Shown here piece after piece: positions 42,203 to 47,278 of a DNA stretch of 59,258 bases (positions within the stretch are counted from its first letter, which is position 1; the number at the start of each line of letters is the position of its first letter). The DNA lies in the NCBI RefSeq assembly GCF_900129175.1, contig NZ_FQUI01000009.1:1-59258 (forward strand). The letters are read 5' to 3'. The DNA is from Marinitoga hydrogenitolerans DSM 16785 (lineage in GTDB: Bacteria > Thermotogota > Thermotogae > Petrotogales > Petrotogaceae). Below the pieces are notes generated by a model, which did not search any database, had not been told where the DNA came from, and saw nothing but the letters and a program-made list of their open reading frames with translations. A program made the translations under genes and the position numbers.

Positions 42203-42229
42203 AAAAAATAGCCCTAAGGGCTATTTTTT
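42203..42229 (-). terminator. Terminator of flgM-csrA operon
   Basis: Twelve-base arms AAAAAATAGCCC and GGGCTATTTTTT around TAA. On the minus strand the csrA stop codon lies within the stem and the hairpin ends in TTTTTT. Confidence 0.93.
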
Positions 42230-42454
42230 GTTAAATAATTTTTTTACTTGAGATACGTCTTTTACTTTAGTTGCAGAAATGTTTTCTTTCATTATACTTT
42301 CGTACACTTCTTCTCTATATATCTTAAATTCTCTTGGCCCCTCAAATCCCAATTTGATTGCATTACCTTCTATATTTAGAACTTTTATTTTTAATATTTT
42401 GTCATCAATCATTATAGTTATTCCCTCATCATTCTTTCTGGATAGTACTAACAT
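42221..42454 (-). CDS. csrA: Carbon storage/translational regulator CsrA
   Basis: A 77-residue protein beginning MLVLSRKNDEGITIMIDDKI and continuing IKVLNIEGNAIKLGFEGPREFKIYREEVYESI, the CsrA fold with its RNA-binding ends (LSRK and the REE segment). It binds GGA motifs in hairpin loops over ribosome sites; in B. subtilis the target is flagellin mRNA and FliW is the antagonist. It starts two bases after fliW with the AAAGGGGTG ribosome site inside fliW. A candidate target hairpin lies before the flagellin gene at 58785. Confidence 0.97.
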   Translation of the reverse strand: MLVLSRKNDEGITIMIDDKILKIKVLNIEGNAIKLGFEGPREFKIYREEVYESIMKENISATKVKDVSQVKKLFNKK

Positions 42455-42456
42455 AA

Positions 42457-43437
42457 TTATGCACCCCTTTCTTTATCAGGTGCCTGTTTTTTTATAATTT
42501 CATCGCTTCTCGAAATTTCTTCTTTTACATTATGTTTCAAATGATAATTTTCATTTTCTAAAATTAACTGAACACCTTTGTTGTTCACTTTAGAAATAAT
42601 TATTGGTGCTTTTAAATTTACTGTGATATTATCAGGATCACCATGAGGAATTGTCATTATTGTAAATATTTTTACGTCCTCCGGTTTTTTAATTTCTAAA
42701 TATTCAACAATATCTTTTGATAAGTCAAATGTGTAATCAACCCTCACTAATACAGGATCTATTACTGGAAATGTTATTTCTGGATTTTCTAAAGATAATA
42801 ACCATTGTATGGGAAATGTTTCTTTTGAAAAATGGATATAAAATTTTTTAAGATTTTCAAATCCTGGTATTCCGCTTTCAAATATTATTATTTCGTTATC
42901 TGCTATTTCTAATTCACCAAATTTTGTGTTATATTTACTTTTATTTTGAGAAATCTTAGAAACTTGTTTTATTTGCCTTTCAAGAACCTGTTGGCTTATT
43001 ATTATCTCATCTCTTATATTATGTTTTATAGATAAACTTTCATCATCCAAAATATACTGAATGCCTTTATTAGTTTTTTTTGAGATGATTAGAGGTGCTT
43101 TTAAATTAACCGTAGCATTTTCAGGATTTTCATGAGGTATAGTCAATATTGTAAAGACTGCTGCATCATTATCATCATTTATCCCCAATTTACTTACAAT
43201 CTCTTCTGGAACCTTTATCTGATAATCTACTCTTATTAATTTAGGCTCTATTATTGGTAGTGAAACAAGTTCATCTTCTAATGATAAAAGCCACATTATT
43301 GGATATGTTTCTTCAAGTGTAAGTATAACAAACCTTTTTAAGTGCTCAAATCCTGGTATCCCATCTTCAAAAATAATAATTTCTTTATCTTCTACTTCAA
43401 TTTCTCCTATCCTTGTTTTATATAATCTTAATGCCAC
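42457..43437 (-). CDS. fliW: Flagellar assembly factor FliW, tandem two-domain form
   Basis: A 326-residue protein with two complete FliW domains: about 1-146 and 173-308, joined by a polar linker (147-172). Matching blocks are GEIEVEDKEIIIFEDGIPGF / GELEIADNEIIIFESGIPGF, MWLLSLED / QWLLSLEN, FTILTIPHENPENATVNLKAP / FTIMTIPHGDPDNITVNLKAP, and IKHNIRDEI / LKHNVKEEI. Ordinary FliW is a single domain of about 150 residues. FliW binds flagellin and CsrA in turn to tie flagellin translation to secretion. The start is GTG at 43437 behind GGGAGGAG. It lies in flgM-flgN-flgK-flgL-fliW-csrA. Confidence 0.95.
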   Translation of the reverse strand: MALRLYKTRIGEIEVEDKEIIIFEDGIPGFEHLKRFVILTLEETYPIMWLLSLEDELVSLPIIEPKLIRVDYQIKVPEEIVSKLGINDDNDAAVFTILTIPHENPENATVNLKAPLIISKKTNKGIQYILDDESLSIKHNIRDEIIISQQVLERQIKQVSKISQNKSKYNTKFGELEIADNEIIIFESGIPGFENLKKFYIHFSKETFPIQWLLSLENPEITFPVIDPVLVRVDYTFDLSKDIVEYLEIKKPEDVKIFTIMTIPHGDPDNITVNLKAPIIISKVNNKGVQLILENENYHLKHNVKEEISRSDEIIKKQAPDKERGA

Positions 43438-43451
43438 TCCAAATCTCCTCC

Positions 43452-44348
43452 CTATCTAATAAAATCCACAAGGGATTGTGGTAATATTTGTGCAGTTGTC
43501 TTCAATGCTGCTTGTAAAGTCGTTTGTTCAAGTGATAAATCACTTAATGCTTTTGTTAAATCGGTACCTACTAATTCATTAATAACATCTGTATTATTAT
43601 CTATTACTTTCTCAAATCTTTTTTCCATAGATTCTAACATATTATCTACACTTCCAACCCGAGCCAAATTAGCATTTACTTTATTTAAAATGCTATCCAA
43701 AGAACCCAAATCTCTTTCTATATTTTCATTATTTCCACTTTCAACAGAACTTATAAGTCTATCTAATATTCCAAACACAGTTTCGCCTGAATCTGTTTTA
43801 AAAATGTCGTATACTGTTACACCATATTCAATATCAATGTGTTCAAGAGGAAGTTTCGCTCTTATATTTGCTTCTTGTGGAGTGTTAATAACAACTGATT
43901 CATTTTCTTTTCTTACTGGTGGCAAATCTGTCTTCGCTCCACCAAAAATATATTTACCCCCAATTTGTGTATTTGCTAATTTATATAGATGCTCTTTTAG
44001 CTGTTTAAGCTCAATAGCAATATTATTTCTGTCTTCAACTGTTTGGGTATCGTTAGCCGCTTGAACAGTTAACTCTTTTATCCGACGATTAACATTCTGC
44101 ATTTCCTGTAATGCTGTATCATAATAAACCAACACAGATCTTGTATTTTTTATATTATCAACATACTCATTTAACAATCTATTTCTACTCATTAGATAAC
44201 TGGATTTTCCAGCATTCAACGGATCATCCGAAGGTTTATTAATTCTTTTTCCCGTTGTTATTTGCACACTTAATTCTTCTCTTCTTAGCATTGAATTCCT
44301 AATATTGTTTATTGCATTATTTGCAATCATGCTTTGCGTAATTCTCAT
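43452..44348 (-). CDS. flgL: Flagellar hook-filament junction protein FlgL
   Basis: A 298-residue protein with the flagellin-like N-terminus MRITQSMIANNAINNIRNSM...GKRINKPSDDPLNAGKSSYLMSRNRLL. The C-terminal helix (LSDLSLEQTTLQAALKTTAQILPQSLVDFIR) is also family-like. It joins the FlgK ring to the filament. ATG 44348 follows GAGGTGATTGTT; a GTG at 44357 belongs to the upstream spacer. It starts six bases after flgK. Confidence 0.94.
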   Translation of the reverse strand: MRITQSMIANNAINNIRNSMLRREELSVQITTGKRINKPSDDPLNAGKSSYLMSRNRLLNEYVDNIKNTRSVLVYYDTALQEMQNVNRRIKELTVQAANDTQTVEDRNNIAIELKQLKEHLYKLANTQIGGKYIFGGAKTDLPPVRKENESVVINTPQEANIRAKLPLEHIDIEYGVTVYDIFKTDSGETVFGILDRLISSVESGNNENIERDLGSLDSILNKVNANLARVGSVDNMLESMEKRFEKVIDNNTDVINELVGTDLTKALSDLSLEQTTLQAALKTTAQILPQSLVDFIR

Positions 44349-44353
44349 AACAA

Positions 44354-47278
44354 TCACCTCATCAATCCATTAATTATCCTATCGAGCATGCTATCAACAA
44401 CATTAATTACCTTTGCTGCAGCATTAAATGCTTGTTGATATTTAATCATATTGGCCATTTCTTCATCTAATGAAACTCCTTTTACACTTTCTCTTTGGTT
44501 GAGATATTCTGTTCTTAAGCTATCACTATTTATCTCCATTCTTTTTGCTTTTTCACCAGATAATCCAACTTCTGTAATCATATCGGAAATATAATCTTCA
44601 AAATCGTGCTTCCCATCAGAAAATAATTTCGTACTTTTTAGTAAATATCCTTCTTCCCAAAGAGTTGAAGAATATTCACCCGAAGGAATTATAGTATCAA
44701 TATCACCATCATTGTCAGAATCTATTCGTTTGCCTAAATCCATGGCTAACATATCAGGATTATTTAACAAATAATCTTTAACCTTTAAATTTTTAGCTAC
44801 GTCTATTGTATCAGACAAAATAAATTTAGACGCATACTTTAATTTATTTTCTAGTGTATTCGAATCATAATCTGGATTTAATAACGTAAAATTTTCAGAG
44901 TATGGTTGCGTACTATCTTCATGCTTCCATAACCCTAACAATTCAAATAATTTTTCAGAACCTTTGATTTCTGCATTTTTTAAGTCATAGTTTATTGTTT
45001 TATCAGCTTTCAGAACAAACCTTCCACCTGGCGTATAAAATGCTAATACTCCTGTGTTTGTTTCATTTATTTTTTTTGTTAAACTCTCAAGTGTATCTCT
45101 ATGAAAATCTATATTTATCTTTTTTCCCTGTATTGAAATAAATGATCCAAAATCAAGAAAATTCATTCTCCATTTTAAATCCTCATCTGATTTTAGCGTT
45201 AATTTCGCACTTTGTGTATTTGTTGCCCATCCTTGATTCACCAATTTATTTGCTGCAGAATCTTCATCATAATAAAAGTTTTCTATTTTTATACTACTAC
45301 TTCCTACGTTTATCTCAATACTATCAATATTTTCCCAGCTAAATGTATTTCCATCTGCACCTGGTAATATTTCAAATTCCTCACCATTTTGCACTATTTG
45401 AAATTCGCTATTGGATCCTATCGTGACACCGTTTAAGGAAGATTTTTGAATAGTACTTGTATATTGTGGTGTTGAATCTTTATAATTTATTTTTATAGCT
45501 ACATTGTCAGTGGGTAAATATCCTGATAAATCAAACATTTTTGTTTTATATGCATATAATCCAAAAGAATTTTTTAAAGAATTTTGAGATGTATCAAGAA
45601 CTGATAAATCTACAGAGTTAGAATTCATTTCGTGTAACATCCCATTAGGATCATCAATAATTATATTTTTCATATCGCCATAAGCCTTATCTGTTGGTAC
45701 TATATATAATTCATTATTCCTGACAAAGGCTCTAACAAGCTTTAATCCACCATCATTATTTCCATCGCCATCTGCATCAACATTTATTCTCTGAGCTATT
45801 TCATTTAATGTTGTGACCCCCTGCAAATTAAGTGTTTCTGTATAATTACCCGGTCCTTTAAAAGTCATTATTCCTTGCATTGATGTTGATGGAATATCTG
45901 TCCATTTTAAGGCTTCGATATCTTTTGTAGGTATTCCCATTTGTTTAAATATATTTCTATTAAAATCTATTATTAAACGATTATCTAAAGAGGAACCACC
46001 TTTGTTTGCAAAGGTTAATAATCCACCATTTTGCACACTGTATTTATAATTAAAATCTCCTCTAAATTTACTGCCTACACTTAAATTATCTAGAGTTTCT
46101 CCAGAATTTATCGTTGCTACATAATCACTATTATCTTCAAAACCATTTTCGATATTAATTAATTCTCCACTGCCTATATCAAAATTAACTTTTATATCAT
46201 TTATTGTATTTTGGTTGAACTTAATATAACTATCAACATAATTTTTAGGTTCTCCACTTAATAATATATTTCCTGCTATCCTTCTTAATTTATCTGTTTC
46301 TAAGTTTCCAGATTGTAATTCATTAAAAAAGTTCATTCCTCTTATTGTACCTGTTAAATCATAACCTTCTTCATGAATAAGATTTAATGTATCATAAAAT
46401 GTGGCTGCTAATTCATTTAATCTATTTAACTGCTCATTTATAACCTTATCTCTTAATTCAATTGTAGCACCTAAACTTCCGTTTTTTATATTCATGATTC
46501 CATTATCTACAAAAACATAGTTTTTCCCATTAACCTCTTTAATGCTTAATTTTTTATATATTTCCCCATTTAATATTTCATGATTTTTTAAAATAATACT
46601 TATTTGACCATCTTTTTTTTCTTTCACAGTAAAATTTAACTTCTCTGATAACTCATCTAATATCGCATCTCTTTTATCCAGTAAATCATTAGCTTCTATA
46701 TTTTGAGTTTTCAATTCTTTTATTTGTCTATTTAGATTTGATAATTCACTTAACTTTGAATTTATATCTTTTAGTATATTTTCAACATCATTATTTAAAT
46801 TGTTTTTAACACTTTCTATATCTGAAAATAAACTACTCATTTTATTTGAAAGTTCTTGTGCTTTATATATTAATTCTCTTTTGTTTTCCGGAACAGTTGG
46901 TTCTGATAATATTTTATGAACAGATCCCCAAAATTCATCAAATGCTCTTCTAAAACCATCTTCTGATGGCTCACCATAAAGCGATTGTATATAATTAAGG
47001 TTTGAATTCATTGTTTTCCAATATCCATAATCACTATTATATTTTCTATATTGAACATCTAAAAATTGATCTCTAACCCTTTCTATAGATTCAATTTTTG
47101 AACCTGTCCCTAATTCAAACCCACCATAATTAATAGTGGCATTTGTTGAGATATTCACTTGTCTTCTTGAATAGTTGGAATTATTAACATTGGCAATATT
47201 TTGAGATACTGCATTCATTGCCACTTTGTTTGAAAATATTCCAGAAATTCCCGTATTCAGTGTATTAAATAATGACAT
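44354..47278 (-). CDS. flgK: Flagellar hook-associated protein FlgK, very long form
   Basis: A 974-residue protein; ordinary FlgK is roughly 450-650. Ends are canonical: MSLFNTLNTGISGIFSNKVAMNAVSQNIANVNNSNYSRR and SVKGVSLDEEMANMIKYQQAFNAAAKVINVVDSMLDRII. The middle (about 330-870) is an enlarged surface region of beta-type sequence. It holds two DxDxDG-type loops, DADGDGNNDGG near residue 500 and DSDNDGDID near 851, which look like calcium sites. FlgK forms the first hook-filament junction ring. It is preceded by flgN (its chaperone) and followed by flgL. Confidence 0.93.
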   Translation of the reverse strand: MSLFNTLNTGISGIFSNKVAMNAVSQNIANVNNSNYSRRQVNISTNATINYGGFELGTGSKIESIERVRDQFLDVQYRKYNSDYGYWKTMNSNLNYIQSLYGEPSEDGFRRAFDEFWGSVHKILSEPTVPENKRELIYKAQELSNKMSSLFSDIESVKNNLNNDVENILKDINSKLSELSNLNRQIKELKTQNIEANDLLDKRDAILDELSEKLNFTVKEKKDGQISIILKNHEILNGEIYKKLSIKEVNGKNYVFVDNGIMNIKNGSLGATIELRDKVINEQLNRLNELAATFYDTLNLIHEEGYDLTGTIRGMNFFNELQSGNLETDKLRRIAGNILLSGEPKNYVDSYIKFNQNTINDIKVNFDIGSGELINIENGFEDNSDYVATINSGETLDNLSVGSKFRGDFNYKYSVQNGGLLTFANKGGSSLDNRLIIDFNRNIFKQMGIPTKDIEALKWTDIPSTSMQGIMTFKGPGNYTETLNLQGVTTLNEIAQRINVDADGDGNNDGGLKLVRAFVRNNELYIVPTDKAYGDMKNIIIDDPNGMLHEMNSNSVDLSVLDTSQNSLKNSFGLYAYKTKMFDLSGYLPTDNVAIKINYKDSTPQYTSTIQKSSLNGVTIGSNSEFQIVQNGEEFEILPGADGNTFSWENIDSIEINVGSSSIKIENFYYDEDSAANKLVNQGWATNTQSAKLTLKSDEDLKWRMNFLDFGSFISIQGKKINIDFHRDTLESLTKKINETNTGVLAFYTPGGRFVLKADKTINYDLKNAEIKGSEKLFELLGLWKHEDSTQPYSENFTLLNPDYDSNTLENKLKYASKFILSDTIDVAKNLKVKDYLLNNPDMLAMDLGKRIDSDNDGDIDTIIPSGEYSSTLWEEGYLLKSTKLFSDGKHDFEDYISDMITEVGLSGEKAKRMEINSDSLRTEYLNQRESVKGVSLDEEMANMIKYQQAFNAAAKVINVVDSMLDRIINGLMR

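Follow-up and report, generated by a model that had tools for sequence, protein, structure and literature searches.

A duplicated and fused two-domain FliW encoded next to csrA in the flagellar operon of Marinitoga

The FliW proteins of Geobacillus thermodenitrificans and Bacillus subtilis (PDB 5DMB, 5DMD and 5JAK) consist of one domain of ~150 aa, and in the crystal two separate molecules sit on one CsrA dimer. However, B. subtilis cells contain FliW and the CsrA dimer at approximately 1:1, a stoichiometry set by translational coupling, and one FliW per dimer is enough to release the hag mRNA (PMC6529632). The number of FliW needed per CsrA dimer is, thus, unsettled, two being indicated by the crystals but one by counts in B. 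subtilis cells and by a mixed dimer of its CsrA (PMC6529632). N55 of the CsrA of B. subtilis and C. jejuni is needed for FliW binding (PMC7829508; PMC13407953), and in HDX experiments on FliW the stretches protected by flagellin are the TVNLKAP strand and the surroundings of GIPGF (PMC6070490). The FliW and CsrA of the Thermotogae were noted as unstudied in a 2026 paper (PMC13407953), and no paper that names FliW together with Marinitoga came up in our literature search.

The window analysed here is a stretch of 59,258 nt from Marinitoga hydrogenitolerans DSM 16785 (contig NZ_FQUI01000009.1, positions 1 to 59,258). The relevant features, all on the minus strand, are as follows.

42457..43437, minus strand: fliW, GTG start, encoding a tandem two-domain FliW of 326 aa; an open frame with two full PF02623 domains, an architecture found in all seven Marinitoga genomes
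43015..43377, minus strand: FliW domain 1 (N half), PF02623 1-122, 133.2 bits; profile match, and membership of a seven-species N-half clade (support 100/97)
42529..42888, minus strand: FliW domain 2 (C half), PF02623 1-121, 135.3 bits; profile match, and membership of a C-half clade (support 98/99)
42955..43017, minus strand: predicted linker helix, residues 141-161 of FliW; AlphaFold2 model, pLDDT about 65-82 in this part
42221..42454, minus strand: csrA, 77 aa, the sole csrA in the genome, whose FliW-binding helix keeps its Asn (KEN motif); open reading frame, profile match and alignment
43452..44357, minus strand: flgL (hook-associated protein), the adjoining gene upstream of fliW; identified from its sequence and location, with matches to Flagellin_N and Flagellin_C
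44354..47278, minus strand: flgK, operon gene upstream; open reading frame and position
42459..42481, minus strand: csrA Shine-Dalgarno (AGGGG) in an inverted repeat, GCACCU...AGGGGUGC, within the 3' end of fliW; conserved in seven of seven species

The protein encoded at 42457-43437 is a FliW that has been duplicated and fused, with two complete, separately conserved domains in one chain. Both halves lie in a single stop-free frame, and each exceeds the PF02623 cut-off of 25 bits by a wide margin, the entire protein scoring 259.6 bits; the NCBIfam FliW equivalogs likewise match two stretches. The original prediction of a tandem FliW was, therefore, correct, and the domain limits it proposed (residues 1-146 and 173-308) match those found with the profile (about residues 2-155 and 165-318) and in the structure model. 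At 326 aa and two domains, the protein departs from the ~150 aa length of other FliWs, but this length is an architectural feature that varies here and does not define homology within the family.

An AlphaFold2 model of the tandem protein, built from an input of 37 sequences, contains two repeated FliW folds and the joining helix (mean pLDDT 91, pTM 0.56). When the model was compared to the PDB using Foldseek with a significance limit of E <= 0.001, the only matches were 5dmd, 2aj7, 5jak and 5dmb, all of them FliW and each matched over approximately the length of one domain (TM by target 0.82-0.90). The values for the Geobacillus and Bacillus structures are about 0.88-0.90, and the Marinitoga protein also shares with these FliWs the Pfam family, the csrA neighbour and the conserved motifs. 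A second half that is not FliW can be ruled out by the PF02623 match and by the FliW-only structure matches. The placement of the two domains relative to one another is uncertain and cannot be relied on in this model, given the pTM of 0.56. The tandem protein represents a known regulator in a new architecture rather than a new kind of system.

The distribution of this architecture was examined in 103 Thermotogota genomes, 78 of which include FliW. Two full FliW domains in one frame of 325-332 aa were found in all seven Marinitoga genomes, including assemblies of one and two contigs, and this excludes chance, or a sequencing or assembly error that joined two fliW genes. Each of the other 71 FliW-bearing Thermotogota genomes encodes a single full domain and none a fused tandem; one of them (G055) includes an additional 96 bp FliW fragment on another contig. 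Outside the Thermotogota, no fused tandem was found in about 280 genomes with FliW (174 Bacillota, 48 from the phylum of an Acetomicrobium locus (Synergistaceae-type), and sets of 37 and 22), and two further surveys mostly resampled the same Bacillota genomes. The tandem FliW is, therefore, unique to Marinitoga within the Thermotogota, Bacillota and smaller sets of genomes searched, and the proposed novelty relative to standard FliW holds within that scope.

The nearest relatives in the tree are the FliWs of 13 genomes of Petrotoga and other Petrotogaceae, and the gene order flgK-flgL-fliW-csrA is shared with a relative that has a single FliW. These relatives differ from Marinitoga in that their FliW is one domain and their flagellin mRNA leaders include an additional upstream GGA hairpin.

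In the window, csrA begins 2 bp past the fliW stop. The location of its Shine-Dalgarno inside the 3' end of fliW is consistent with translational coupling and agrees with that known for B. subtilis (PMC6529632). The inverted repeat around it is predicted to form a hairpin of -9 kcal/mol in the window copy, though for two of the three copies folded the result is not significantly better than that for shuffled sequences. This repeat may be the reason why the Marinitoga FliW ends in an invariant ERGA. In an alignment of more than 100 CsrA sequences, the Marinitoga CsrA has the C-terminal extension, and the Asn aligned with N55 of the B. subtilis and C. jejuni proteins is kept in seven of seven Marinitoga species. 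The Asn column is common to nearly all of the CsrAs retrieved.

The flagellin leaders of the sister genera, like that of B. subtilis hag, include two CsrA-type sites, an upstream hairpin of the form GCCC-AAGGAA-GGGC, which is about 33-43 nt upstream of the flagellin starts in other Petrotogaceae, and a GGA over the Shine-Dalgarno. The upstream hairpin is strongly conserved and is probably a CsrA site. It was found in 11 of 15 sister-genus leaders using strict pairing (0.02 expected from shuffles) and in 14 of 15 when G-U pairs were allowed. In Marinitoga, all 16 flagellin leaders have a hairpin at the Shine-Dalgarno (e.g. ATTTCAC-ACGGAG-GTGAAAT), but the upstream GGA hairpin is absent from 15 of the 16. 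Most Marinitoga flagellin mRNAs have a single recognisable CsrA site, the hairpin that covers the ribosome binding site, and the two-site, hag-type arrangement is not that of the genus.

The reading that we favour, with a probability of roughly 0.4, is that the tandem FliW is a bivalent antagonist of CsrA, one molecule covering both FliW-binding sites of the dimer. Binding to both CsrA subunits had been proposed from the sequence, and it is compatible with the published picture of a dimer that has two FliW sites but takes up one FliW in vivo (PMC6529632). The reading is favoured because two full domains, both modelled with high confidence, are conserved in all seven Marinitoga, because CsrA retains the FliW-binding Asn and the published structures place a FliW at each of the two sites of the dimer, and because the upstream GGA hairpin is found in 14/15 sister-genus leaders compared to 1/16 in Marinitoga. 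Where the leader has two sites, a block on either CsrA protomer would end the bridging of the sites and a single FliW would suffice. With a one-site leader, however, a half-blocked dimer could still bind via its free RNA site, and hence both protomers would need to be covered, which a tandem FliW could achieve at one molecule per dimer. With csrA translated directly behind fliW, one tandem to each CsrA dimer would mean full rather than half occupancy. The tandem protein would still run the flagellin-FliW-CsrA partner switch, with up to two flagellins titrating one molecule. The model assumes that a linker of roughly 20 residues would be able to span both sites of the dimer. The bivalent binding, its stoichiometry and a causal link from the leaders to the tandem FliW are what we infer. 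A more far-reaching version, in which the whole flagellin switch would have been remodelled, with a covalent FliW dimer clamping both CsrA protomers to offset the one-site mRNAs (one tandem FliW to one CsrA dimer to one site) and its two linked sensors titrated by flagellin, perhaps in a cooperative manner, appears rather improbable.

The leader and the tandem are associated through a single evolutionary event. Using the strict criterion, the upstream hairpin was found in none of 12 leaders from other Thermotogota families, all of which have a single FliW. The leader change may, therefore, have run in either direction, a one-site leader does not demand a tandem FliW, and the case for the tandem as a strict consequence of one-site leaders is weakened.

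The genus may have rewired the matching of flagellin production to flagellum assembly, and, if bivalent binding is correct, the tandem FliW would be an example of gene fusion as an evolutionary route to an altered stoichiometry in a partner-switching regulator. A natural covalent FliW pair with halves that are genetically separable would also allow a direct test of the FliW:CsrA stoichiometry.

The origin and divergence of the two halves bear on a second reading, in which the labour is divided. In a tree of 55 FliW domain sequences, the seven N halves (100/97), the seven C halves (98/99) and the sister-genus FliWs (99/98) form separate clades. The separation of the N and C clades points to a single duplication and fusion older than the genus, with halves that have not been homogenised, and it rules out a recent duplication or concerted evolution between them. 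Hence, one duplication and fusion of fliW appears to have taken place in the common ancestor of the Marinitoga species. In the best tree, the two sets of halves are sisters, with support of 69/68 (69 % of bootstraps), and an AU test gave p 0.47 for the C half grouping with the sister-genus FliWs; an alternative origin, in which the duplication would be older than the genus and was followed by loss in the sister genera, is not rejected. Among the Marinitoga species, mean identity is 75 % for the N half, 79 % for the C half and 67 % for the linker, and mean dN is 0.157 and 0.131 for the N and C halves, respectively. Though the ratios are rough as dS (about 1.4-1.6) is near saturation, both halves are under strong purifying selection.

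It had been proposed that the copies have diverged and may have split tasks. The divergence is borne out by the separate clades and by about 38 columns in which the residue sets of the N and C halves of the seven species are disjoint. The loop given as an example, LGINDDNDAA versus LEIKKPEDVK, is also variable among single-domain FliWs. A split of tasks, with, for example, the C half acting on CsrA and the N half mainly on flagellin, or the reverse, and both partners held at once, is possible but somewhat unlikely. It is favoured by the class-specific columns, by the loss from five of seven N halves of a near-universal Tyr (at residue 135, where the window protein has Leu, the C-half counterpart being Tyr298) that every single-domain FliW compared keeps, by the absence from all N halves of the C-terminal Arg of the sister-genus FliWs, and by the higher score of the C half in seven of seven species when both halves are matched to a model of single-domain Thermotogota FliWs. 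However, of the 28 columns that are conserved in >75 % of single-domain FliWs, the only exceptions are this Tyr in the N half and, in both halves, an Asn-to-Ser change common to the whole Petrotogaceae, and the regions that flagellin protects, around GIPGF and TVNLKAP, are intact in both.

A third reading, which we regard as unlikely, is that the fusion affects only dosage or stability, doubling the FliW sites made per translation event or stabilising the protein in a thermophile, with ordinary halves and no new geometry. The conservation of both halves is compatible with this, and unfused fliW pairs next to csrA indicate that extra dosage is tolerated or used. Such pairs were found in Pectinatus brassicae (fliW-fliW-csrA, L061:2983-4292), in 'Calditrichales' MX18-03 (fliW-csrA-fliW, L090:2980-4243) and, adjacent to one another, in a genome of the Synergistota-type sample (G384, L189:529-1714). 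They have in common with Marinitoga two FliWs by csrA, but theirs are separate and have no linker. Against this reading, the class-specific fixation of residues and the lack of homogenisation suggest that the halves are not interchangeable, and other thermophilic Thermotogota have a single FliW.

That each half serves one of the two flagellin classes of Marinitoga, one type being single copy and the other present in one to two copies with a differing leader, is very improbable, as sister genera with a single FliW also have 2-4 flagellin-family genes, and flagellin number is not supported as the cause of the tandem.

All 16 Marinitoga filament flagellins examined begin with MRIYHN, compared to [MV]RINHN in 26 others, MRINHN being near-universal elsewhere; the change lies in the N-terminal region, which is the FliW-binding part of flagellin. 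A short, divergent flagellin-like protein (268-306 aa, e.g. about 275 aa with about 50 bits to Flagellin_C) is found across the Thermotogota in addition to the filament flagellins and FlgL. In one genome of the Bacillota sample (G156), a FliW of a different construction, 378 aa long and adjoining csrA, shares its reading frame with an attached isochorismatase-like domain (PF00857, 59 bits, E 6e-16; L186:481-1614, minus strand), and this fusion may be real or may reflect a stop lost in a draft genome.
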